From contig NC_045143.1 of assembly GCF_008831285.2 (NCBI RefSeq), positions 8,505,503-8,569,502 on the forward strand: 64,000 nucleotides of DNA, in the 5' to 3' direction. Of the stretch, positions 7,704-63,151 are shown piece after piece; the stretch's first letter is position 1; every line of letters begins with the position of its first letter. The notes below the pieces were generated by a model, which saw only the letters and a program-made list of their open reading frames with translations, searched no databases and was not told the origin of the DNA. The DNA is from Nymphaea colorata. Lineage: Eukaryota > Streptophyta > Magnoliopsida > Nymphaeales > Nymphaeaceae. The translations under genes were made by a program, and so were the position numbers.

Positions 7704-7850
7704 GAACCAAACTTGGTATGAAAGAAAATTGAGAAGCTGGTGTGGGCAACTGCCCGCACCAGCCTATATGTGGCTCTGCCACTGTTGCCAACTGCTACAT
7801 CCCGTAAGAGTTTGGGCAGTGTCTCAGTTGTCTATGAAGCTGGGAACACC
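7575..7850. repeat. 149-bp tandem duplication joining MITE end to 16S-like DNA
   Basis: Two copies begin with GAAAATTGAGAAGCTGGTGT at 7575 and 7724. Each has a MITE-type end (GGGCAACTGCCC ... CAGCCTATATGTGGCTC.GCCACTG) followed directly by the 16S rDNA-like piece described separately. Divergence between copies is about one base in ten over the shared part. The duplication therefore happened after MITE and rDNA pieces were already adjacent. Confidence 0.75.
7634..7709 (-). pseudogene. organelle-type 16S rRNA gene scrap (NUPT/NUMT-like)
   Basis: On the minus strand this reads as the bacterial/plastid 16S stretch around GAGAGGATGATCAGCCACAC, followed by TGGGACTGAGACA and a degraded CTCCTACGGGAGGCAGC region. 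About 40 bases at 7670-7709 are nearly identical to the conserved 16S sequence as I know it. A partial second copy lies at 7788-7829 and keeps CCCGTAAGAGTTTGGGCAGT. The variable bases look closer to plastid than to plant mitochondrial 18S, but the piece is short. It is far too small to be functional. Confidence 0.65.
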
Positions 7851-7859
7851 CATATAAGA

Positions 7860-8800
7860 TAATGACCACTTTGTTAGATTATGTTTACTTCTAAATATAG
7901 TGAAAACCAGAGGACTCTTACTCTTTGGAGGAAAACAGAGAAGGAATTCATCAGGTTACTAACAGTACTGACAAGGTTAACAACTCCACAAAGCTACCTG
8001 ATTTTAATATTAATTACATCTAGCTGCCTGTTTTTTTTTGCATGTTTGCTACAAAATTATGGATGTGCTATAATATTCTATTGCTTGGCAACTTATCAGG
8101 TACTAGTCTGCCCTCCATCCCGGTCACCTCTTTTTACACCACAAAGAGTTAACGTCCAAATAATTTAAAACATAAACTGACTACCGACCTTACCATTGTG
8201 TCACACCCCTCTAAAACTCATATTCTCCCTTTTCTATTTGGAGAAAAATGGGACTTGTAATGACCCAAGTTTTTTAACCACGGTAAATCTTAAGGCACCT
8301 TTGACTACTTCTCCAGCAGTAACTAAGCCTAGGCATCAGCCCGGGTACCCGACTCGATCGAGACCGGACCTAGGCTCGAGAAAACTGTCCTTATTTATTT
8401 TATATTATTTTTATTTAATGATGATGTATATTTTATTACTAAAAATATATTTTATATTCAAAAAAATTATTTTATATTAAAAATTATTTTATATTAAAAA
8501 ATATTTTAATTGGGCCGAACTAGCCGGGGCCATAGCTCTGGTTTCAAGGATTAGGCCGGGCCTAGCAATAACTCCATCTCTGCCTCGAGGAAAGAAAAAC
8601 ATTTTCGGATAAAATTTCACCCCAATTTTTTTACCTGCCCTAACCAAATATCATTAATTTTTTTCACTTCAAAACTTTACCTTCTCTGTCCCCTCTTTTC
8701 TCTTCATTACTCGGAAAAACGAGAGAAGAAAAATGAAAAATTATATGTTCCATTAGGTCAAATGGTTCTTATTAGACTCTACAAAACCAGAGCTACAATT
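7860..8800. other. intergenic, TE-derived words only
   Basis: No gene recognised. 8336-8385 and 8508-8570 hold CCCGGGTACCCGACTCGA and GGGCCGAACTAGCCGGGGCC type strings, typical of decayed nonautonomous plant elements. The rest is AT-rich. Confidence 0.4.
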
Positions 8801-16631: not shown

Positions 16632-17734
16632 ATGGAGTCCCCGGAGTTTTTCCTGGCCGGAAGCTTCCGAGCGGGGCCGCCGCAAATGTCGCAGGAGATG
16701 AAGTTCTGCGACATTAAGGGTGCCGATTTCTTCCCCATTGAGGACCTGCTCGACTTCTCCAACGAGGACGCCTCGGGGCTGCCCGACGCCGCGGCGGGGA
16801 ACTCCACCGATTCCTCGACCATCACCGTTGCCGAGACGGGCGGGAGCTGCAATTCGTCCTTCTCAGGCGACTGCCGCAACCTCACGGACTCGCATTTCCC
16901 GGGGGAGCTTTGCGTACCCGTAAGCGCCCTGACCCTGGAAGGAAATTATTTTGGAGTTTGGTTGTTGGCATTTTTTTGACTTTTTCAGTGTGTTTCCGTT
17001 ACGGGCAGTATGACGATCTCCCGGAGTTGGAGTGGCTTTCGAATTTCGTGGAGGACTCCTTCTCGAGCGACGATTTCCAGAAGCTTCAGATCGTCACGAG
17101 CGTCAACACGAAGGACGACGCCACCGGGGTGCTGGAGTACAAGTGCTCTGCCGACAACCCGTCGGCCTCGCTCCCGCCGGCACGGCAGAACCCGAGCTTC
17201 AACCCGGACGCTCCCGTGCCCGCCCGGGCTCGGAGCAAGCGCTCCCGGACGGCCGCTTGCAACTGGTCCTCGCGCCTCATGGTCCTCTCGCCCACCACGT
17301 CCTCGTCGGGCTCGAGTGACGCGATCGCCGACGCCGCCCGGAGGGTGCCGAAAGAAGCCGGCAAAGTCATCCGGAGAAGGGAGGTCTCCGAGCACCCGGA
17401 GGGCCGCAAATGCCTGCATTGTGCCACGGACAAGACCCCGCAGTGGCGAACGGGCCCGCTCGGGCCGAAGACACTCTGCAACGCCTGTGGCGTCCGTTAC
17501 AAGTCCGGCCGGCTCGTGCCGGAGTATCGCCCCGCCGCAAGCCCGACGTTCGTGCTTACGAAACACTCGAATTCACACAGGAAGGTGCTCGAGCTCAGGA
17601 GGCAGAAGGAGTTGCAGAGATCGCAGCATCAATTCCTCCAGCAGGCCGCGGGGGTATTCGACGTATCGGCCGGAAGCGACGCCGGAGATGAGTTCTTGAT
17701 CCAAACCGGCCCGGATTTCCGGCACCTCATCTGA
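16632..17734 (+). CDS. GATA-type zinc finger transcription factor, two exons
   Basis: Exons are 16632-16919 and 17009-17734, joined in phase 0 across an 89-nt GT-AG intron (CCC|GTAAGC ... GGGCAG|TATGAC) to give 337 residues. The finger C-X2-C-X18-C-X2-C is at residues 231-256 (CLHC ... CNAC), followed by the plant subfamily I signature [15 protein letters not shown] and [16 protein letters not shown]. The N-terminal third has acidic segments ([24 protein letters not shown]) that fit an activation region, and RARSKRSR before the finger may be a nuclear signal. Such factors bind WGATAR sites and control light, growth and development genes. Exon 2 is strongly GC-biased. The ATG at 16632 matches the usual N-terminus (MESPEFF). 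Exact orthology to a numbered GATA gene cannot be settled here. Confidence 0.95.
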
Positions 17735-49000: not shown

Positions 49001-50256
49001 AAGTTAGTATTGGCATCTCCATCCTTCAGCCATTTAATTTTTCTCTTTTGTCTCCAAGAGAGTTCTTCCATTAAAAGAAGACGGTTCAAATGCTCTGTAT
49101 TCAGTTTCCTTTTGAATAACATTTATATCTTCATTCTCTGCTTCAATTTGCACCTACAACATAGCATTTTTGTACTCATTGATCTCAGTTTCAAAGCCAT
49201 GGACAATCTCCTGTCAATTATCTTTAATGATGGTTTGCATTATGCTTCTTCCATCCAAAAAGTATAAAATCTAAGGCATGGCCTACCACAATCCCCAATT
49301 CTGCATTTATAAGCATTGAGAATAATGAGATTGTGATTAGAGCAAGTGCGATCGAGAATCATGAGTTCATTGCAGTAAACATGATATCCACCCAAGAAGG
49401 AGTAACAACACAATGATTTATCTTACTCATTTCATTTCTAGAGCCCGTACGATTCTTAGTCCAAGTATACTCGATGTATGAATTAGAATTTTTTGTTAAA
49501 TTACAGGTATTGACAAAATTCACGAAGGCCATACATGTCAATTGAACAGGAGGGTTACCAAATTTCTCGATAGCATCACTTACAACATTGAGCCTCTGAG
49601 GCAAACCAGAGGATTCTTTGAGGAAATGATATTTTGCTACAAGTTTAGTAATTGCCACTTTCTACGTCTGAAGTCAGTATCAAGATAAACACCAATCACA
49701 AAAAAATGTAGCTCGTTGTTCTTGTCTTTGAAATTGCATGATATTCATGTTGATGACACTGAAACATGAATCAGATCAATGACATCTTGATTTCAAATAA
49801 CTAAGATCTGAGCTCATCCATCGACATGAGATAAATTAAAAACAATACTATATTTAAGAAGCATAAGATGCAACTTTCTAACACCTTCAAGAGATAGTTT
49901 AAGATCAATAATGAAGAAAACTTTGGGGTCATACCTGGCGAGGATGGTTCAAAGTTCCCGATTTGAATCCCTACTTGCTAGTCCCCTTATGTTTCCGCTA
50001 CATACTTTCATGAACATTAGATTCAACTGCCCCAACATGCAAAATTTCCTTGCCCTCCCCTTCACGAGGTTGAATTCCATCGTAGTTTGTTCGAACATCT
50101 CACATGGGAGCTCCTCCTCCAAGGTCTATCGCTATGGCTTGGTCCGTGCCGATATCGACAAGTTTAGGCATCACCTCTTGTAGGGTGACATTGATAGCCT
50201 TAGGCATCTGCTCATCTATTGCCATGTTACCCTCATCTGCTTGAGTTCTTCTTTTA
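46070..50256 (-). mobile_element. decayed L1-type LINE, main part
   Basis: Reading down from 50256 on the minus strand: an ORF1-tail-like stretch (50256-50103), then the endonuclease start with the SGNIRGL motif near 50000 and its C-terminal part at 49658-49359 (YTWTKNRTGSRNEMSKI). Next come the reverse transcriptase A-motif region near 48300-48370 (AYDRASWEFLENTMQIW), the later RT block with DELIMFSP and GLKVNKEKS at 48052-47798, and the thumb-like WKQKLLSYASRLCLIKYVL at 47788-47567. A zinc-binding RCALCRKHEDDESHLFF is near 46990. The tail near 46390-46060 is like plant LINE 3' ends. Many stops and shifts show it is dead. Its 5' part lies on the far side of the Harbinger insertion. Confidence 0.85.
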
Positions 50257-50404
50257 GGGCCCGTTTGATGCAAAGGAAAAATCTTGTGCATCAGTTGAAA
50301 AACGTATGGGAGGGTGAAATTTCACATGTTCACCCTTCTTCACAACAAACACACATAAATTTCACCCGAAATTTACTTTGCCATCGGGTAAAATTTCGCC
50401 CGTG

Positions 50405-50435
50405 AAAAAGTCGGTCCTCACAGGACCGACTTTTT
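50405..50435. other. perfect 14-bp hairpin in the Harbinger element
   Basis: AAAAAGTCGGTCCT, a three-base loop CAC, then AGGACCGACTTTTT. The arms pair fully. It lies 150 bp inside the left end and ahead of the repeated leader. Confidence 0.85.
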
Positions 50436-50499
50436 GGCGGAGACAAAATTGAGAGCTGTTAGGGCTCTCAATGTCTCCCCTCTTCTCTCTCGCTACATC

Positions 50500-50660
50500 C
50501 TTGCAGTCGACAGAAGGGCTCCTCTCTCACTGCACTCCACAGGTTTGCGTCTCCTTCTCCCTCGCACTCGACGGAAGGGCTCCTAACTCGCTGCACTCCA
50601 CAGGTCTGCTTCTCCTTCTCCCTCGCACTCGACGGTCTTCTCCTCCTCTCTCGTTGCACA
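50500..50660. repeat. 61-bp tandem repeats in the Harbinger leader
   Basis: Units begin at the CGAC of CGACAGAAGGGCTCC (50508), CGACGGAAGGGCTCC (50569) and CGACGGTCTTCTCC (50630), each with CTGCACTCCACAGGT and CTTCTCCCTCGCACT. The third unit is partial. They lie in a CT-rich stretch with one long plus-strand frame (50471-50911) of repetitive Ser/Leu-rich sequence, which I take as leader, not as a protein. Confidence 0.8.
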
Positions 50661-52199
50661 GGTCTGCATCTCCATCTGTTGTCATCGTGTCTCCTTCTTT
50701 GTCGCGGTCTTCTTCCTCACCTTTACTACTGCACAGGTCTCCGAACTGTCGCTGCTTCTCCCCTCTATCGTTGTGTCTCCTCTTCTCTTGTTGTGTTTCC
50801 TCCTCGGTCGCTGCATCTTTCCTCTTTGGTATTTTTCATACGCATGTGAGTTTGGAGTTTTTAGCCTTTGTTTGCTTGCTTATGTCGCTTCATTGTGGCG
50901 GTATATTTTAATGTTTCAGTTTATAAATATTCAATCTTGTTGTCTGTTCGTCTTTTACATCTTCTCCTTCGTAATCTGGTGTCCCTTTTTTATTGGGTCA
51001 TTCTCATGTTCATTTTTTGTGCAGTTTGGATGCCATTGTGTTGAAGTTACACATTTACTGCCTAGTTTGATCTCATTTTCTTATACGTAAGAATCTACGA
51101 TCCATTTCTCGTTAATCTGGGATTGCATGGCAACCATTTATTTGATTTCCTTTTCAATTTTGTGGAAACATGTTGTGGTGGTAAAATTGGGCATAGGCTA
51201 TTATTTTCATAGAGTACTGCTATTGATTGTGATTGTATCTGATGAAGTTGACATTAGATTCAAAATGTTCACCAGATAGCATGGAGGAAAAAATGGCGTT
51301 AAAAGGGAATATTGTATTCAAAGGGCTCAAGGTCCTTGTTGTTTAATTTTACATTTACACCGAAATCGATGTCTAGACATTTCTGGTTGTCAGGGAAATC
51401 CATGTCCAACCTTTCTTGGTAATCAACTATTGACGGCAATTTATATGTTTCATATTGAAGATTGTGTTACTGTGGGCATGTTCAATTTGTAACATTGACA
51501 TTAAACTCAAATCTGCTTTTCATCAAGTTTACTTTTCCACCTCTTTCTCTCTCTCTCTCTCTCTCTCTAAGCTTAATGGCTCTTGATGCACTTAATAGTT
51601 ACTCATATGCATGTGTTTTGATATGCTTTGTTTCATTTATCTTCTTGCAGCAGGCAATCTTACAAATCAAATGTTAAGATTTTGTTGATGTGGTCCTAAC
51701 ATTTAAAGTTTTTTTTGTAATTTTCATTGAAAATTTTGATGATAAAATTATTATGTCCATCTGTTATAGAGAATTTGACTAAGGAAGAGATCCTGAAATT
51801 TATGTAATGTAGTTCATACTTTGAACTGTTAAAAGGAAATTTATGTTCTGAAGTTTGTTCATGTTAGATGTGGAAAGCTAAGAAAAGTCCAAACAGATGT
51901 GCTTAAAAGGAAATGTTTTGCAGGTGGCACCCTTGAAAGTTCAAGCCATATCAGCAACTCTTCATCTTCCTTTTGATCATCGACTGCTTGTGTAGAATTT
52001 AACATTGCAGGTACACTGAATTGGATAATGAACTTTTCTTGTAGAATTTTAAATTTGAAATGGACTTGAAAGAACTTACTGTTGGCAGTTTGTTACATAA
52101 ATCAAACACAATATGGCATGCTATTGTCTTCCTAATCAAGGTCTTGATTATCTGCATCATAGGATATACAAGTTTAGATAAAACAAGTTATGAAGAACA

Positions 52200-53138
52200 T
52201 ATGATATGTTTTGATGGGTGCTCGTTTGGCAGAACAATGATGAGATGTCAACACATATTCAGCAATCTAAACGATTCTTTTCATATTTTCAGGTAATTTC
52301 ATAATCATAACTCAACATTGCATATACAACATGACTAACTTGTATATATGCATATAGAATTGTTTAGGAGCAATCAATGCATCCATGTACCTGCATGGGT
52401 CCCAGCTTCAAATCAAGTAAGGTATCGCAATAGAAAAGGATCCATTTCTCAGAACGTCATGACTGTAGTTGGATTCGACACTCGATTTCACTATGTTTTG
52501 GCTGGATGAGAAGAAAGTGCAACATACTCAAGAGTATTGTACAATGCACTTGATCATCAAACCGGCCCATTTGTTGTCCCAAAATGTACGTAGTTCCACC
52601 ATCCATTGCACTCTTTTAACACGTATGTAACAGTGTATAAATAAATTGTGTTTAATTGTAGGCAAATATTATCTTGCTGATGGGGGGACATCCAAACATT
52701 GTCGGTTTGCTCACACCTTATCGAGGGCATCGTTATCATATGTCTGAGTTTAACACTCAGGGAGCACGTTCACCTAGAACTAAAGAAGAATTATTCAACC
52801 ATAGGCATTCATCACTTCGAAATACAGTAGAAAGAACTTTCGGCATGTTGAAAGGTCGTTTTCCAATATTGAAAATGCAAGTGCAGTATCCATTCAAAAA
52901 ACAAGTTCTAATTGTTTTTGCTACATGTATATTGCACAACTTCATAATTGAACGAAATCTAAATGCCGAGCAATTTGTTGATGAAGATGCACATTCGAAT
53001 GATAACTTTGTCTTAAACGAACCGGAATTTGCAAGCCAAACACATCAGCGAGGAAGCAACAATTCTCTGAGAACAGCTATAACATCTCAAATGTTTACAA
53101 ATTATCAATTGAATAGTAAATTTATTTATGAATTTTGA
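52200..53138 (+). pseudogene. PIF/Harbinger transposase, disabled
   Basis: The middle shows CIHVPAWVPASNQVRYRNRK and GSISQNVMTVVGFDTRFHYV, then LAG, a stop and EESATYSRVL, where family members have LAGWEGSAHDSRVL. A plausible 76-nt intron (52586-52661) joins VPK to KYYLADGG. The second half, HPNIVGLLTPYRGHRYH, RTKEELFNHRHSSLRNTVER and TFGMLKGRFPILK, is the classic DDE-domain C-terminal part. Defects seen: TGG to TGA at about 52508-52510, one extra G in the six-G run at about 52682-52687 that shifts frame at the second-Asp motif, and a degraded first-Asp motif. The N-terminal part upstream (52060-52296) is unclear. Confidence 0.85.
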
Positions 53139-53193
53139 CTATTGTTTCATTTAATTGTTTGACATTTGTTTTGTTTTGAATAGGACAACGAAG

Positions 53194-53520
53194 ATGATGT
53201 CTCGCCAAAAGTACTATGTCATTTTCGAAGGTCGGTCACGAGACATATATGACAGTTGGGAGCGATACCAACCTTTAGTATATCGGTACAAGGGCACCCT
53301 CTTCAGATCGTTTGATTCATTCGAAGTAGGTGAGTATCACATGAATGAGAATGTCCACAACAAGTATGGTGTGCAAGTACGTAGGCCTCCAGTCATTGAA
53401 AATGTCATCGCAAAGCAAGTTATAGAAGACCCGAAGTTTGTTGAACGGAAGTGCAGCCACAAATGTTGGATTACTTGTTTTGTAATTACATGTTTTCTTT
53501 GTTGGATATGTACTCATTAA
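53194..53520 (+). CDS. second ORF of the Harbinger element, RNase H1 N-terminal/viroplasmin-like domain
   Basis: The ORF of about 108 residues begins ATGATGTCTCGCC and reads MMSRQKYYVIFEGRSRDIYD, then SWERYQPLVYRYKG and FRSFDSFEVGEYH. This is the pattern of the RNase H1 N-terminal hybrid-binding fold (also called viroplasmin-like): K-YYVVF-GR-PGIY-SW-EC-QV-G-KG-YKSF--EEA. That fold binds RNA/DNA hybrids or dsRNA in RNase H1. The C-terminus is a short Cys-rich hydrophobic tail (WITCFVITCFLCW), possibly membrane-inserting. It lies between the transposase and the right end. Its GR, SW, KG and SF positions are conserved, and the frame is intact although the transposase is broken. It could be a separate protein or be spliced to upstream sequence (an AG acceptor is at 53183). 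Confidence 0.6.
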   Translation: MMSRQKYYVIFEGRSRDIYDSWERYQPLVYRYKGTLFRSFDSFEVGEYHMNENVHNKYGVQVRRPPVIENVIAKQVIEDPKFVERKCSHKCWITCFVITCFLCWICTH

Positions 53521-54088
53521 ACTTTTTTTTTTGTGGATGGTAGGGAATACACCCTTTTGTGGATATGTACTCATTAAACTTTTGTAGACATGTACTAATT
53601 ACACATTTAAACATGTATGAGTTAGGTAACTTTGTTATGATTATAACTTTTATTTGGTCAACTATATTACACTGTTGGATGTCATGGTTTTAATTGTGTT
53701 ATTTTTTTTTTTACATAAAATTGTTGTTGGTAATGCGTGCTTAATGCATAGGTGTAGACATTAGCATTTTGTTGTTTTGGAAGATCATCTTCCAATTTCT
53801 TCCCACGCCAAATTTTAGAGGAGAATGACAAAAAAAAAACAACCACTACTAACAGTTCTGAAAAAAATCTCAATTTTTTTACCATGTGCATCAAACAATG
53901 TTAATTTTACCCTGCAAAAAACTATCATGTGCATCAAACAAGGTTAAATTTATCACGTTAAATTCTTTCTATGCATCAAACAGGATCTCAGATTGGAAGA
54001 TGGAGAAATTTCATCTTGTAATTTTTTCAGAAAAATTTACCATGATAAATTTACCACGTTAAATTCTTCTCTGCCATCATACTGACCC

Positions 54089-54160
54089 TTAAAAATAATG
54101 TTATCCGCATTGTTTACAATTCTCTTATGAGTACCTCCATACATTAGGTGAAGGAAACAT
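54089..54160 (-). mobile_element. LINE ORF1 portion beyond the Harbinger insertion
   Basis: On the minus strand LMYGGTHKRIVNNADNIIF ends at the TTA duplication. After the 3832-bp element the frame continues KRRTQADEGNMAIDEQ on the LINE side (50256 downwards). The continuous frame shows this is the displaced 5' piece of the same LINE. How far it extends beyond 54160 is not clear. Confidence 0.65.
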
Positions 54161-55290
54161 TAAGTAATGGTTGTTTTACTTTTTTGAAGTTAATTTGTAA
54201 ATAATAATAAATCGAGCGACTGCGCTATATGCCAGTATTTATCTAGAAAAGCATATACATCATGTGAAAAGTCTATCTTTTTCATTGGGTGAATAGAATG
54301 AGCATACCACTTGAGCATGAAAGAAAACTCACATGACCGTTGTTTTGCTTATTTAAGTTTATCTCAAATCGGCCTATTTTCGGCATGAAATACATGTTAT
54401 CACATTTTACATAGTCAGCAGCTCCATATCAAGGTCATAATCACTATCATGGATATCAATGTCGTCATGAACATGAATAATATCTAGGAACTTGATGGGC
54501 TGGCAGAACAGATGCAATGCCTATATCTGAAAATGGGTTGCAGGAATGTATTTAGGTTCCGTTTGGTAAACAAAAATCTGTTCAAAAGCTGCTCCAAAAT
54601 TTCATGAATATCCTCTTTAATTTAGGAAGAACCTTCAATCCTTAACACATGCCACCTGACATATTGACTCCACCACATTAGGATATGAGGGTGCCAACTG
54701 TATTATATAATAATATTTTTTGTTTTTTATGTTGTTTTTATTTTTGACATTATTTTTATAAATATTATATACTTGATATTTTTATTTTGATGCTTATACA
54801 TCACTATACCAAGCATCACTTCTCATCAACATACTTAACAACATTGCTCAAAACAAACAAAACTGGGTTGTAGAGTGCTGTCAACACAGCTTAGTTTTCC
54901 TATATGTGTGAGTTGTATGGACGGTGGAGCGAAGGAAACCCATAGTCCATAGATGTTCATTCGGATCAAGACCGAGTATCCGATGAACCCGATCCATTGC
55001 AGCCGTAGCCGTGAAAAATGAAAGGGCGGGAAAGCTTTGCCGCTTCAACAGGACAAACGAAAACCCTAATTTGGAGGGAAATCCTCCCTGTAAGAAACCC
55101 TGAGAGAAGGGTTACCCTTTCCTCTCTTCCATTCATCGTCTTCTTCTTCGTCCTCCCTCGCCCTCATTCTTCCCTTTCCCTGTCACTCCACGCCACCACT
55201 GCTCCCTCCCTCAAGAAATCCCTCTCCCTCTCCCTCATTTGCAGACGTTAAAAGCGCCGACATTGCCTCCTGCAAGAATATACCGGAATA
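54161..55290. other. intergenic and leader of the SWIM/RING gene
   Basis: The first part is AT-rich with no gene. From about 55000 the sequence is CT-rich and leader-like, with a 77-codon upstream ORF at 55018-55251 ending before the SWIM/RING start. No clear TATA box. Confidence 0.4.
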
Positions 55291-56019
55291 ATGGAGGACG
55301 AAGAGTCCTCTACCACCGCCACCGCAGGGCTCCCATTGCCCCGAGCGGCCGCCAGAAAGCGGATAGCGGACAGGATCGGCCGCGCGCTCCAGCACCGCCT
55401 CCTCCTCCTCCACCGTTCCGCCGCCAGCCCCTACTCTGCCTCGTTCTTCGTCCTAGGCGCCACCGGCAACGTCTACACCGTCACCATCTCCCCCGCGCCT
55501 TCGTGCACCTGCCCCGACCCCACCGTCCCCTGCAAGCACATCCTGTTCGTTCTCCTTCGCGTGCTTCGCCTCTCTCCCTCCGACCGCCGCCTCCGGCACA
55601 GGTCGCTCCGCCAGGCCGATGTCCGCGCACTCCTGGCCACCGACTCCAACACCGCCGTTCTCGCGGGGCCGAAGCTCCGATCTAGGTTCCAGCAGATCTT
55701 CCGCGCCGGCGGTGCCGTTCCTCGCGATTCCTCCGCCGAGGGCCGGGCCGAGGACCGGACGGAAGAGTCCGAAGAGGAGGTGTGTCCGGTGTGCCTGGAG
55801 AAGATGGAGAGGAGGGGGGAGCCCGTGGCGGTCTGCGTCGCCTGCAGGAATGCCGTCCATGTAGCTTGCTTTGATCGGTGGAAGAAGAGCAGGGGAAGGC
55901 GGGGAGCAAACTGCGTGATGTGTAGGGCGAGGTGGAAACAGAAGAAGCCGGAGGATGAGAAATATGTGAACTTGGAGGCCTTTGTTAAGGAAGAATGCAA
56001 TGTGGAGGGGCCTCCGTGA
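55291..56019 (+). CDS. SWIM and RING finger protein (putative E3 ubiquitin ligase), intronless
   Basis: 242 residues in one exon. The SWIM zinc motif is at residues 72-83 (CTCPDPTVPCKH), within a region reading FFVLGATGNVYTV before it and ILFVLLRVL after it. The RING finger has ligands C165, C168, C182, C185, H190, C193, C208 and C211 (CPVCLEKM ... CVACRNAVHVACF ... CVMCRARW). This SWIM-then-RING order occurs in plant proteins related to ZSWIM2-type ubiquitin ligases. An acidic linker (EESEEE) separates the two. The exon is very GC-rich (the shadow ORFs in other frames follow from that). The start at 55291 fits the SWIM distance; no earlier in-frame ATG is evident. E3 activity is inferred from the RING. 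Confidence 0.9.
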   Translation: MEDEESSTTATAGLPLPRAAARKRIADRIGRALQHRLLLLHRSAASPYSASFFVLGATGNVYTVTISPAPSCTCPDPTVPCKHILFVLLRVLRLSPSDRRLRHRSLRQADVRALLATDSNTAVLAGPKLRSRFQQIFRAGGAVPRDSSAEGRAEDRTEESEEEVCPVCLEKMERRGEPVAVCVACRNAVHVACFDRWKKSRGRRGANCVMCRARWKQKKPEDEKYVNLEAFVKEECNVEGPP

Positions 56020-62535: not shown

Positions 62536-62627
62536 GCCCGAGCCCAGCAGACCACTAAGGGAACCCACCCTCGCTTCTTGATCATCACCGCCGGTGAGAA
62601 AGACAGAGAAAGAGTTATTTTCCGACG

Positions 62628-63151
62628 ATGAACGGCGGCCGGAAGCCACTGGACGTACAGATTCCGGTGGCGGAGTCGAAGGTCACGGCGGACTCTGGCA
62701 CCATGAGCGGACCGCTAGTGGCGCAAGGGGCGCGAGCGGCCGCTCTGGCGCAGCGGAGGGCCGACGTCGTACATGCGGCTCTCCGGTTTCTTTGCCTCAC
62801 GACCTCCGTCGTCTCCCTCTCGGCGATGGCCGTGGCTGAGCAGTCCTCGTCCATCGTCATCTACGGCTTCAGCCTCCCTGTCTACGCCAAATGGAGCTTC
62901 TCCGACTCCTTCGAGTACTGTTCGCTCCATCCCCCCCGCAGGCTTCGACTCCTCTCCTTCTTTTTCTTTTTTGTTTAGGTTCGGGCGACGAGCTTTTTTG
63001 TGCGTTTTGCTGCAGGTACCTAGTCGGAATGTGCGCGGCCGTCGCGGCGCACTCGCTGCTTCAGCTGCTTCTGAGCGCGTCGAGGATGGCGAAGAGATCG
63101 CCGGTGATCCCCTCCCGCAGCCACGCGTGGTTGATGTTCGCTGGTGATCAG
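62628..63151 (+). CDS. CASPL3-like: CASP-like membrane protein (CASPL3 type), 5' two exons, cut by window end
   Basis: Exon 1 is 62628-62914 and exon 2 is 63016-63151, split within the Glu codon (TTCGA|GTACTG ... GCTGCAG|GTACCT), giving 141 residues so far. Membrane segment 1 is about residues 47-70 (VVHAALRFLCLTTSVVSLSA). KWSFSDSFEYLVG and the second segment (CAAVAAHSLLQLLLSASR) follow, then RSPVIPSRSHAWLMFAGDQ, the conserved loop of this subfamily. CASP-like proteins are four-pass MARVEL-related membrane proteins; founding CASPs scaffold the Casparian strip, while most CASPLs have unknown roles. A GT donor (CAG|GTGAGC) ends exon 2. The third exon with the last two membrane segments is not visible up to 64000 and should lie beyond. 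Confidence 0.9.

Follow-up and report, generated by a model that had tools for sequence, protein, structure and literature searches.

The window, the whole stretch of 64,000 nucleotides that was analysed, contains a PIF/Harbinger element at positions 50257-54088, as the original prediction had it, with a TTA duplication, matching ends and a DDE_Tnp_4 transposase. Its terminal repeats, GGGCCCGTTTGATG at 50257 and GGGTCAGTATGATG at 54088, are equal at 11 of 14 positions, and GCATCAAAC motifs are repeated in the right subterminal region (53767-54088). The features, including the 108-aa frame which we refer to as ORF3, are as follows.

50254..50256, no strand: left target-site duplication TTA, read from the sequence
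50257..50270, no strand: left terminal inverted repeat GGGCCCGTTTGATG; the same motif ends relatives
52233..52292, plus strand: what is left of transposase exon 1, about 20 residues from its end (E 0.003)
52384..52584, plus strand: transposase exon 2 remnant (80.6% identity to a relative), with an in-frame stop
52662..53115, plus strand: transposase exon 3, DDE_Tnp_4 (PF13359, E 7.6e-12), with a frame change near its start; the end at 53115 is placed by the conserved donor
53116..53183, plus strand: predicted 68-bp intron, GTAAAT...GAATAG, whose splicing is likewise a prediction; the relatives' donor is GTAAG
53194..53520, plus strand: ORF3, 108 aa; its ATG overlaps the TGA at 53195-53197, where the transposase frame would end after the predicted splicing
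53209..53325, plus strand: RNase H1 N-terminal domain PF01693 in ORF3, residues 19-57 of a 121-aa stop-to-stop frame
53464..53514, plus strand: hydrophobic C-terminal tail of ORF3, a putative tail anchor (17-residue mean hydropathy 2.10)
53767..54088, no strand: right subterminal region and right terminal repeat, aligning with relatives
54089..54091, no strand: right target-site duplication TTA, read from the sequence

The transposase of this copy is broken, in agreement with the original prediction. Exon 1 is nearly gone, nothing of it being detected beyond the ~20 terminal residues; exon 2 contains a frame change, with its first residues in another frame at 52358-52384, as well as the stop, and its first catalytic D is replaced by N; and the C-terminal exon, which as the frame 52662-53135 matches both PF13359 and PF04827 (E 5.7e-9), has a frame change of its own. 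No Myb/SANT sequence was found in the window copy by Pfam search of the three plus-strand frames or by tblastn against the whole window. Because long relatives carry Myb/SANT upstream, we regard the window copy as a deletion derivative: it is an internally deleted, non-autonomous member of its family in which ORF3 is still open.

Thus the earlier observation that a SANT-like ORF is missing holds for the window copy but not for the family, as 18 of the 20 long relatives carry Myb/SANT coding sequence upstream (in L015, for example, with PF12776 at E 1.1e-6). Genome-wide, PF12776 is matched no more than 7 kb upstream, on the same strand, at 42 of 90 PF01693 loci. The proposal that the second ORF replaces the Myb/SANT protein is ruled out, since long relatives carry both; ORF3 is therefore a third ORF. 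As read from their sequences, elements of this clade encode a Myb/SANT protein, then the DDE transposase and lastly ORF3, three proteins in all.

The profile search of 53194-53520 confirmed the predicted domain, PF01693 being matched with E 3.3e-9 and 37.3 bits against a cut-off of 21. As a single query, the window ORF3 matched the N-terminus of yeast RNase H1 (1qhk_A, E 0.0021), and a profile of eight ORF3 sequences matched both the yeast domain (E 1.3e-11) and its human counterpart (3bsu_A, E 3.5e-6). PF01693 is the sole Pfam match in the 121-aa frame, where neither a catalytic RNase H domain nor any other nuclease domain was found. The RNase H1-type domain is followed by a variable linker and then by a hydrophobic C-terminal tail, which in the window is Cys-rich, as had been noted. 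A tail 17-mer with a hydropathy of 1.60-2.58 lies near the C-terminus in the 28 full-length ORF3 frames, and from this hydropathy ORF3 is probably tail-anchored; its domain makes RNA-binding capacity probable. A single-sequence AlphaFold2 model was poor (pLDDT 48), with a helix at 88-106 predicted at low confidence. Of the 50 copies read, which are 49 loci and the window copy, 28 (27 of the loci and the window copy) have the 108-aa frame intact and 22 lack it; the recurrence of the frame disfavours chance survival, which the original prediction had allowed for.

In the genome from which the window was taken (407.8 Mb), we found 90 PF01693 matches, 73 of which have a Harbinger transposase closely upstream on the same strand. 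With PF13359 alone, a transposase was found for 57 of the 90, at a gap of 219-378 bp that falls within 266-271 bp in 49 of the 57, and no other arrangement of transposase and PF01693 occurred within 3 kb among 150 scored transposase matches. The ORF was confirmed to lie inside the element in the window and in 12 of the 20 long loci, where paired ends are flanked by matching TTA/TAA, and two further long loci have 3-bp duplications of other sequence (CAA in L014, TTG in L026). The longer paired copies span 4.6-6.3 kb, and the open transposase frames of relatives show the D, D and E positions when read by eye. L012 and L014 share 99.6-99.8% identity over pieces of 1.4-1.7 kb, and these near-identical stretches suggest recent movement. 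A PF01693 ORF, often broken, adjoins transposases down to 55% identity.

ORF3 is not universal among these elements. One subfamily, whose copies on two contigs are 99.9% identical (L058 and L062; a third member, L063, is 91% identical), has lost ORF3, and ORF3 is therefore not required in cis. Transposases 60-73% identical to group A have a downstream PF01693 match in just 8 of 44 cases, and 14 close transposases have no ORF3 match, six of these having been read. Conversely, 17 of the 90 PF01693 matches have no detected transposase, and four of these 17 were read. Among the four, L009 has Myb/SANT upstream, and L053, L056 and L057 are partial ORF3 matches, of 39 residues, lacking the first 18 residues and of 21 residues, respectively; beyond its missing residues L056 is 83% identical to group A. 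The original prediction had taken a missing profile hit, or related elements lacking an ORF that occurs elsewhere as an independent insertion, as grounds for its rejection. The outcome is mixed: some close relatives have lost the ORF and some matches have no detected transposase, but the profile was matched and the main set does not consist of independent insertions.

Comparison among copies indicates that ORF3 is under purifying selection. Overall dN/dS is 0.29 between subfamilies A and B (P = 1.7e-6; 0.12 in the domain region) and 0.32 between A and the window (P = 6e-4, both by Fisher's test on mean counts). Within A it is 0.34, which is not significant by the same test (P = 0.058), and comparisons with group C have saturated dS. 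For the tail, A-A comparisons give 1.08 and B-B comparisons 2.42, on about one and about four changes per pair, and the linker gives 1.23 for B against the window. ORF3 distances correlate with transposase distances (r = 0.885, with none of 2000 permutations as high). As ORF3 thus travels and diverges with the transposase, the suggestion that its survival reflects a separate use is unsupported.

The junction with the transposase is conserved in form. Of 42 copies that could be read, 38 have the stop of the transposase frame, as predicted after splicing, lying exactly over the ORF3 start codon (ATGA), and this overlap is kept in L010 and L050 despite introns of 166 and 169 bp in place of the usual 66-70. 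None of the 21 sequences searched has a TURBS-like TGGGA motif in the 260 genomic nucleotides that precede the overlap.

Elements of the PIF/Harbinger group (PIF, Ping/Pong; PHIS superfamily) share with ours the DDE_Tnp_4 transposase, the Myb/SANT-like ORF, the TTA/TAA duplication and paired GTTTGATG-type ends. The literature gives two ORFs for most candidate autonomous elements (PMC4482050; PMC2836001), whereas here a third is conserved; mobilisation is described as needing ORF1 and the transposase (PMC2836001), and what the non-transposase ORFs do is said to be unclear (PMC4482050). In ISL2EU, a Harbinger relative within PHIS, the additional ORF is described as YqaJ rather than Myb/SANT (PMC4482050), so that another protein takes the Myb/SANT position; the elements here keep Myb/SANT and add ORF3, in which no nuclease domain was found. 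With RNase H1, ORF3 has in common the ~40-residue hybrid-binding domain (1qhk, 3bsu; PF01693) but has a hydrophobic tail instead of a detected catalytic domain. The caulimovirus transactivator/viroplasmin (TAV or P6), which comprises 520 aa (PMC3836500), also matches PF01693 (PMC7102451). Its RNase H-like motif, described in CaMV as binding RNA-DNA hybrids and dsRNA, sits in a TOR-binding region tied to reinitiation after long ORFs (PMC5902531). ORF3 differs in its length of 108 aa and in lying inside a Harbinger element rather than a viral genome, and the likeness seen is that of PF01693. A viral source of ORF3 was considered and rejected, as a pattern-based search of IMG/VR gave no relative in viral sequence. 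PF01693 has been described in another DNA transposon, a Pleurotus Helitron that captured a caulimovirus viroplasmin domain (capE; PMC4289320); there, a fungal rolling-circle element has taken up one gene, whereas ORF3 is a conserved third ORF in a cut-and-paste family. Among the matches listed from the open-licence PMC literature (titles and abstract starts), there was no report of PF01693 in a Harbinger element.

We think it rather likely, from the sequence evidence, that ORF3 is an RNA-binding accessory protein which the element encodes and which is probably anchored by its tail, a role which we infer together with the following mechanism. Translation of ORF3 would use the transposase mRNA, with ribosomes reinitiating past the transposase stop codon, or else an alternative transcript; the ORF3 tail would insert it into an ER-type membrane with the domain facing the cytosol, where it would bind element RNA (dsRNA or structured mRNA). 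It would thereby aid the element, most likely by protecting element RNA or promoting its translation rather than in strand transfer, and would be useful yet dispensable in cis, perhaps being provided in trans.

ORF3 might instead act in the nucleus as a transposition cofactor, binding DNA-RNA hybrids or R-loops at the element ends or donor site and so helping the transposase, with the tail as a protein-protein interface or nuclear-envelope anchor; this is consistent with the hybrid binding reported for the RNase H-like motif (PMC5902531). Its co-divergence with the transposase and the close spacing of three ORFs on one strand would also fit. A hydrophobic C-terminal tail is, however, unusual in a soluble nuclear factor. 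Family mobilisation is described with ORF1 and the transposase (PMC2836001), and we consider this role unlikely. Alternatively, ORF3 could be a functionless hitch-hiker that goes back to a single capture, in an ancestral element, of an RNase H1 N-terminal gene fragment; this would explain why the ORF3-less subfamily still multiplied, why many copies lack the frame and why ORF3 is no more similar at the DNA level than the predicted intron (72% against 76% between A and B, where the transposase exon has 83%; 96% against 97% within A). This reading is disfavoured by the dN/dS values, and we hold it to be quite improbable: frame and length are kept between A and B (72% alignment identity, 0.6% gaps) while the 320 bp 3' of the ORF3 stop have diverged far more (43%, 33% gaps), and ORF3 persists, often broken, beside transposases of as little as 55% identity.

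Two further possibilities concern what ORF3 belongs to. The short predicted intron that alone separates it from the transposase, and a frame open upstream of the ORF3 ATG, could mean that ORF3 is the C-terminal part of the transposase, joined through alternative splicing; but with the conserved donor and acceptor the transposase frame is predicted to end at the overlapping TGA in 38 of 42 copies, and no acceptor giving one shared frame was seen by eye, on which grounds we reject such a fusion as very improbable. If ORF3 were a host gene, or a mobile element of its own, that had inserted next to Harbinger transposases, the transposase-less matches would be accommodated, yet this is scarcely credible: near-constant spacing and shared strand rule it out for the main set, ORF3 lies within TIR/TSD pairs, and the four transposase-less loci read have Myb/SANT upstream or are partial.

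For a DNA transposon, a third ORF that selection maintains and that joins a probable RNA-binding domain to a membrane-type tail is unexpected. ORF3 points to a step at the RNA or membrane level, such as translation or the evasion of silencing, through which a class II element would pass. A more specific version, which we regard as quite improbable, would have a bicistronic transposase mRNA, with a UGA stop and restart on the overlapping AUG, and ORF3 as a membrane-bound factor that promotes reinitiation on element mRNAs or counters their silencing; if true, it would place a viral-style translation strategy within a class II transposon. The reinitiation-factor idea draws on the RNase H-like motif that ORF3 and the caulimovirus translation transactivator share. 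The yeast mPing-type assay is an existing system suited to ORF3. Stand-alone RNase H1 N-terminal proteins are annotated in plant genomes, and our results suggest that some of these may be transposon proteins.

The original prediction placed an ORF with the RNase H1 N-terminal fold inside a Harbinger element, and the profile search bore this out with a PF01693 match downstream of the transposase (score 37.3 bits, cut-off 21). This 108-residue ORF, here ORF3, comprises the domain, a variable linker and a hydrophobic tail. The window holds the following features.

50257-54088: broken PIF/Harbinger element, 3832 bp, flanked by TTA at 50254-50256 and TTA at 54089-54091
53194-53520, plus strand: ORF3
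55252-56016: long ORF encoding SWIM and RING zinc fingers, some 1.2 kb past the element
16742-17731: GATA zinc-finger ORF (E = 4e-15)
62598-62975: Casparian strip membrane protein (CASP) domain (E = 2.5e-6)

By eye, positions 1-459 also resemble the end of a Ty1/copia polyprotein; no Pfam match there is significant. The element has imperfect 14-bp ends (11 of 14 positions equal), and its C-terminal transposase exon matches DDE_Tnp_4 and Plant_tran. From transposase exon 1 of this copy, exon-level tblastn recovered roughly 20 residues, and it detected no Myb/SANT sequence. The noted lack of a Myb/SANT ORF thus holds for the window but not for its relatives, as the same method detects Myb/SANT coding sequence at 18 of the 20 genomic loci read at greater length (long loci), the exceptions being L011 and L013; its absence from the window is a deletion in that copy.

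A PF01693 profile search of the 407.8-Mb genome gave 90 places including the window, and 49 of the 89 other loci (ranked hits 1-40 and 82-90) were read. By tblastn, a transposase lies upstream on the same strand at 19 of 20 loci in the first set read and 26 of 29 in the second. On coordinates alone, at least 57 of the 90 hits are preceded on the same strand by a PF13359 match at a distance of 219-378 bp, the gap being 266-271 bp in at least 49 of these pairs; at least 42 of the 90 have PF12776 within 7 kb upstream on the same strand. The genome-wide transposase and Myb/SANT counts are lower bounds, because only 150 candidates were scored for each and more were found. No other arrangement of PF01693 and transposase within 3 kb occurs among the 150 scored transposase hits. 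When all methods are pooled, including the protein query, at least 73 of the 90 hits have a transposase. Four of the other 17 were read: L009 has no detected transposase yet carries Myb/SANT upstream (PF12776 and tblastn), while L053, L056 and L057 are partial ORF3 matches with no transposase detected.

The family order is Myb/SANT, transposase, ORF3 (PF12776 in L015, E = 1.1e-6). That ORF3 sits within the element was confirmed beyond the window, as TTA/TAA duplications and paired GTTTGATG-type ends enclose it in 12 of the 20 long loci; in L014 and L026 the 3-bp duplication is CAA and TTG, respectively. Ten of these 12 paired copies measure 4.6-6.3 kb, and L011 and L013 measure 1.7-1.8 kb. L013 (6088-7815, reverse complement of the fetched locus) is a deletion derivative of 1728 bp, flanked by TTA at each end, with an open ORF3, no detected Myb/SANT and transposase only in pieces.

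Of 50 copies, 28 keep the full 108-residue frame (the window and 27 of the 49 loci), and in these 28 the C-terminal 17-mer hydropathy is 1.60-2.58. We assigned copies to subgroups A (L012-L023), B (L011, L024-L028) and C (L009, L010, each with one in-frame stop in ORF3). Eight aligned sequences share a hydrophobic end with WIC and have invariant KYYV, FEGR, WE, RY and SF positions across all three subgroups. Profile matches include yeast RNase H1 (1.3e-11), human RNase H1 (3.5e-6) and 6vrd (1.5e-4). We are highly confident of this anatomy.

For ORF3, dN/dS among copies was computed by NG86 (stop codons skipped, L027 left out because its end is frameshifted). Overall values are below 1 for all unsaturated groupings: 0.34 within A (66 pairs), 0.44 within B (10), 0.46 within C (1), 0.29 for A-B (60; residues 4-58 0.12, linker 0.72, tail 0.37), 0.32 for A-window (12) and 0.35 for B-window (5). 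Regional values not below 1 are the tail within A (1.08), the tail within B (2.42) and the B-window linker (1.23); A-C and B-C are saturated. Pairs are non-independent; Fisher tests on mean counts gave P = 1.7e-6 for A-B, P = 6e-4 for A-window and P = 0.058 for A-A. A-B nucleotide identity is 83% in the transposase exon, 76% in the intron, 72% in ORF3 and 43% in the 3' flank, with 33% gaps; ORF3 is no better conserved than the intron in DNA, so selection is argued from dN/dS and from the frame having been kept. Distances between ORF3 sequences correlate with those between transposases (r = 0.885, 43 copies; none of 2000 permutations reached this value).

Among the 150 scored transposase hits, with a few loci counted twice, PF01693 lies downstream in 28/32 at ≥90% identity, 27/34 at 80-89%, 7/10 at 74-79%, 8/44 at 60-73% and 3/30 below 60%; a large sister lineage seems to lack ORF3. 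Six (L058-L063) of the 14 close transposases (≥74%) without a PF01693 hit were read. ORF3 is still there with a small deletion in L060, is cut after 16 residues in L059 and retains its start and tail without the domain in L061; the domain is undetectable in L058, L062 and L063. On different contigs, L058 (C8:10670560-10671560) and L062 (C3:11297440-11298440) are 99.9% identical over 999 bp, and L063 (C2:28057530-28058530) is 91% identical over 589 bp; the three belong to a subfamily that multiplied once ORF3 was lost. Elements can therefore multiply without ORF3 in cis, and ORF3 is perhaps supplied to such copies in trans.

The ORF3 start forms an ATGA in 43 of 50 copies, all except L040, L049 and L053-L057. 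In all 42 copies with a readable transposase end, donor and acceptor, the predicted intron is in phase 1, and in 38 the transposase is predicted to stop at the TGA within ATGA. The stop falls 6 nt earlier in L022 and L042, 9 nt earlier in L051 and one base off in L049, where the cause is an ORF3 match that starts in a shifted frame. L010 and L050 keep the overlap despite predicted introns of 166 and 169 bp (66-70 bp elsewhere); splicing itself is a prediction from these sites.

Since ORF3 combines a domain of the type found in TAV, the caulimovirus transactivator/viroplasmin, with an AUGA-type overlap, one bold reading is a bicistronic transposase mRNA from which ORF3 would be made by reinitiation and would itself be a membrane-bound reinitiation or anti-silencing factor; we consider this improbable. 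Some RNA viruses are described as using AUGA overlaps for termination-reinitiation, whereas restarting after a long ORF is described as rare and dependent on special signals or factors (PMC3542737). The TGGGA motif is absent from the 260 genomic nt before the overlap in all 21 sequences examined. TAV matches PF01693 (PMC7102451), and its RNase H-like motif is reported to bind RNA-DNA hybrids and dsRNA (PMC5902531); one review states that this domain turned out not to be needed for silencing suppression by TAV (PMC5902531; PMC7102451). Our preferred reading, with low confidence in the role itself, is that ORF3 would be an RNA-binding, probably membrane-anchored helper working on element RNA in the cytoplasm.

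One paper describes candidate autonomous Harbinger elements as mostly transposase plus Myb/SANT, notes YqaJ in ISL2EU elements and calls the role of additional ORFs unclear (PMC4482050); mobilisation is described as needing two element proteins (PMC2836001). PF01693 is also reported inside a fungal Helitron (PMC4289320), and no report of it in Harbinger appeared, by title or abstract start, among the matches listed in an open literature search. Finally, L012 carries direct repeats of about 720-750 bp (437-1154 and 7846-8598, reverse complement of the fetched locus; 95% identical) that adjoin both ends of its ORF3 Harbinger copy within a few bases, with mismatched 3-bp flanks, and the element looks as if its target had been duplicated, with one copy on either side of it.
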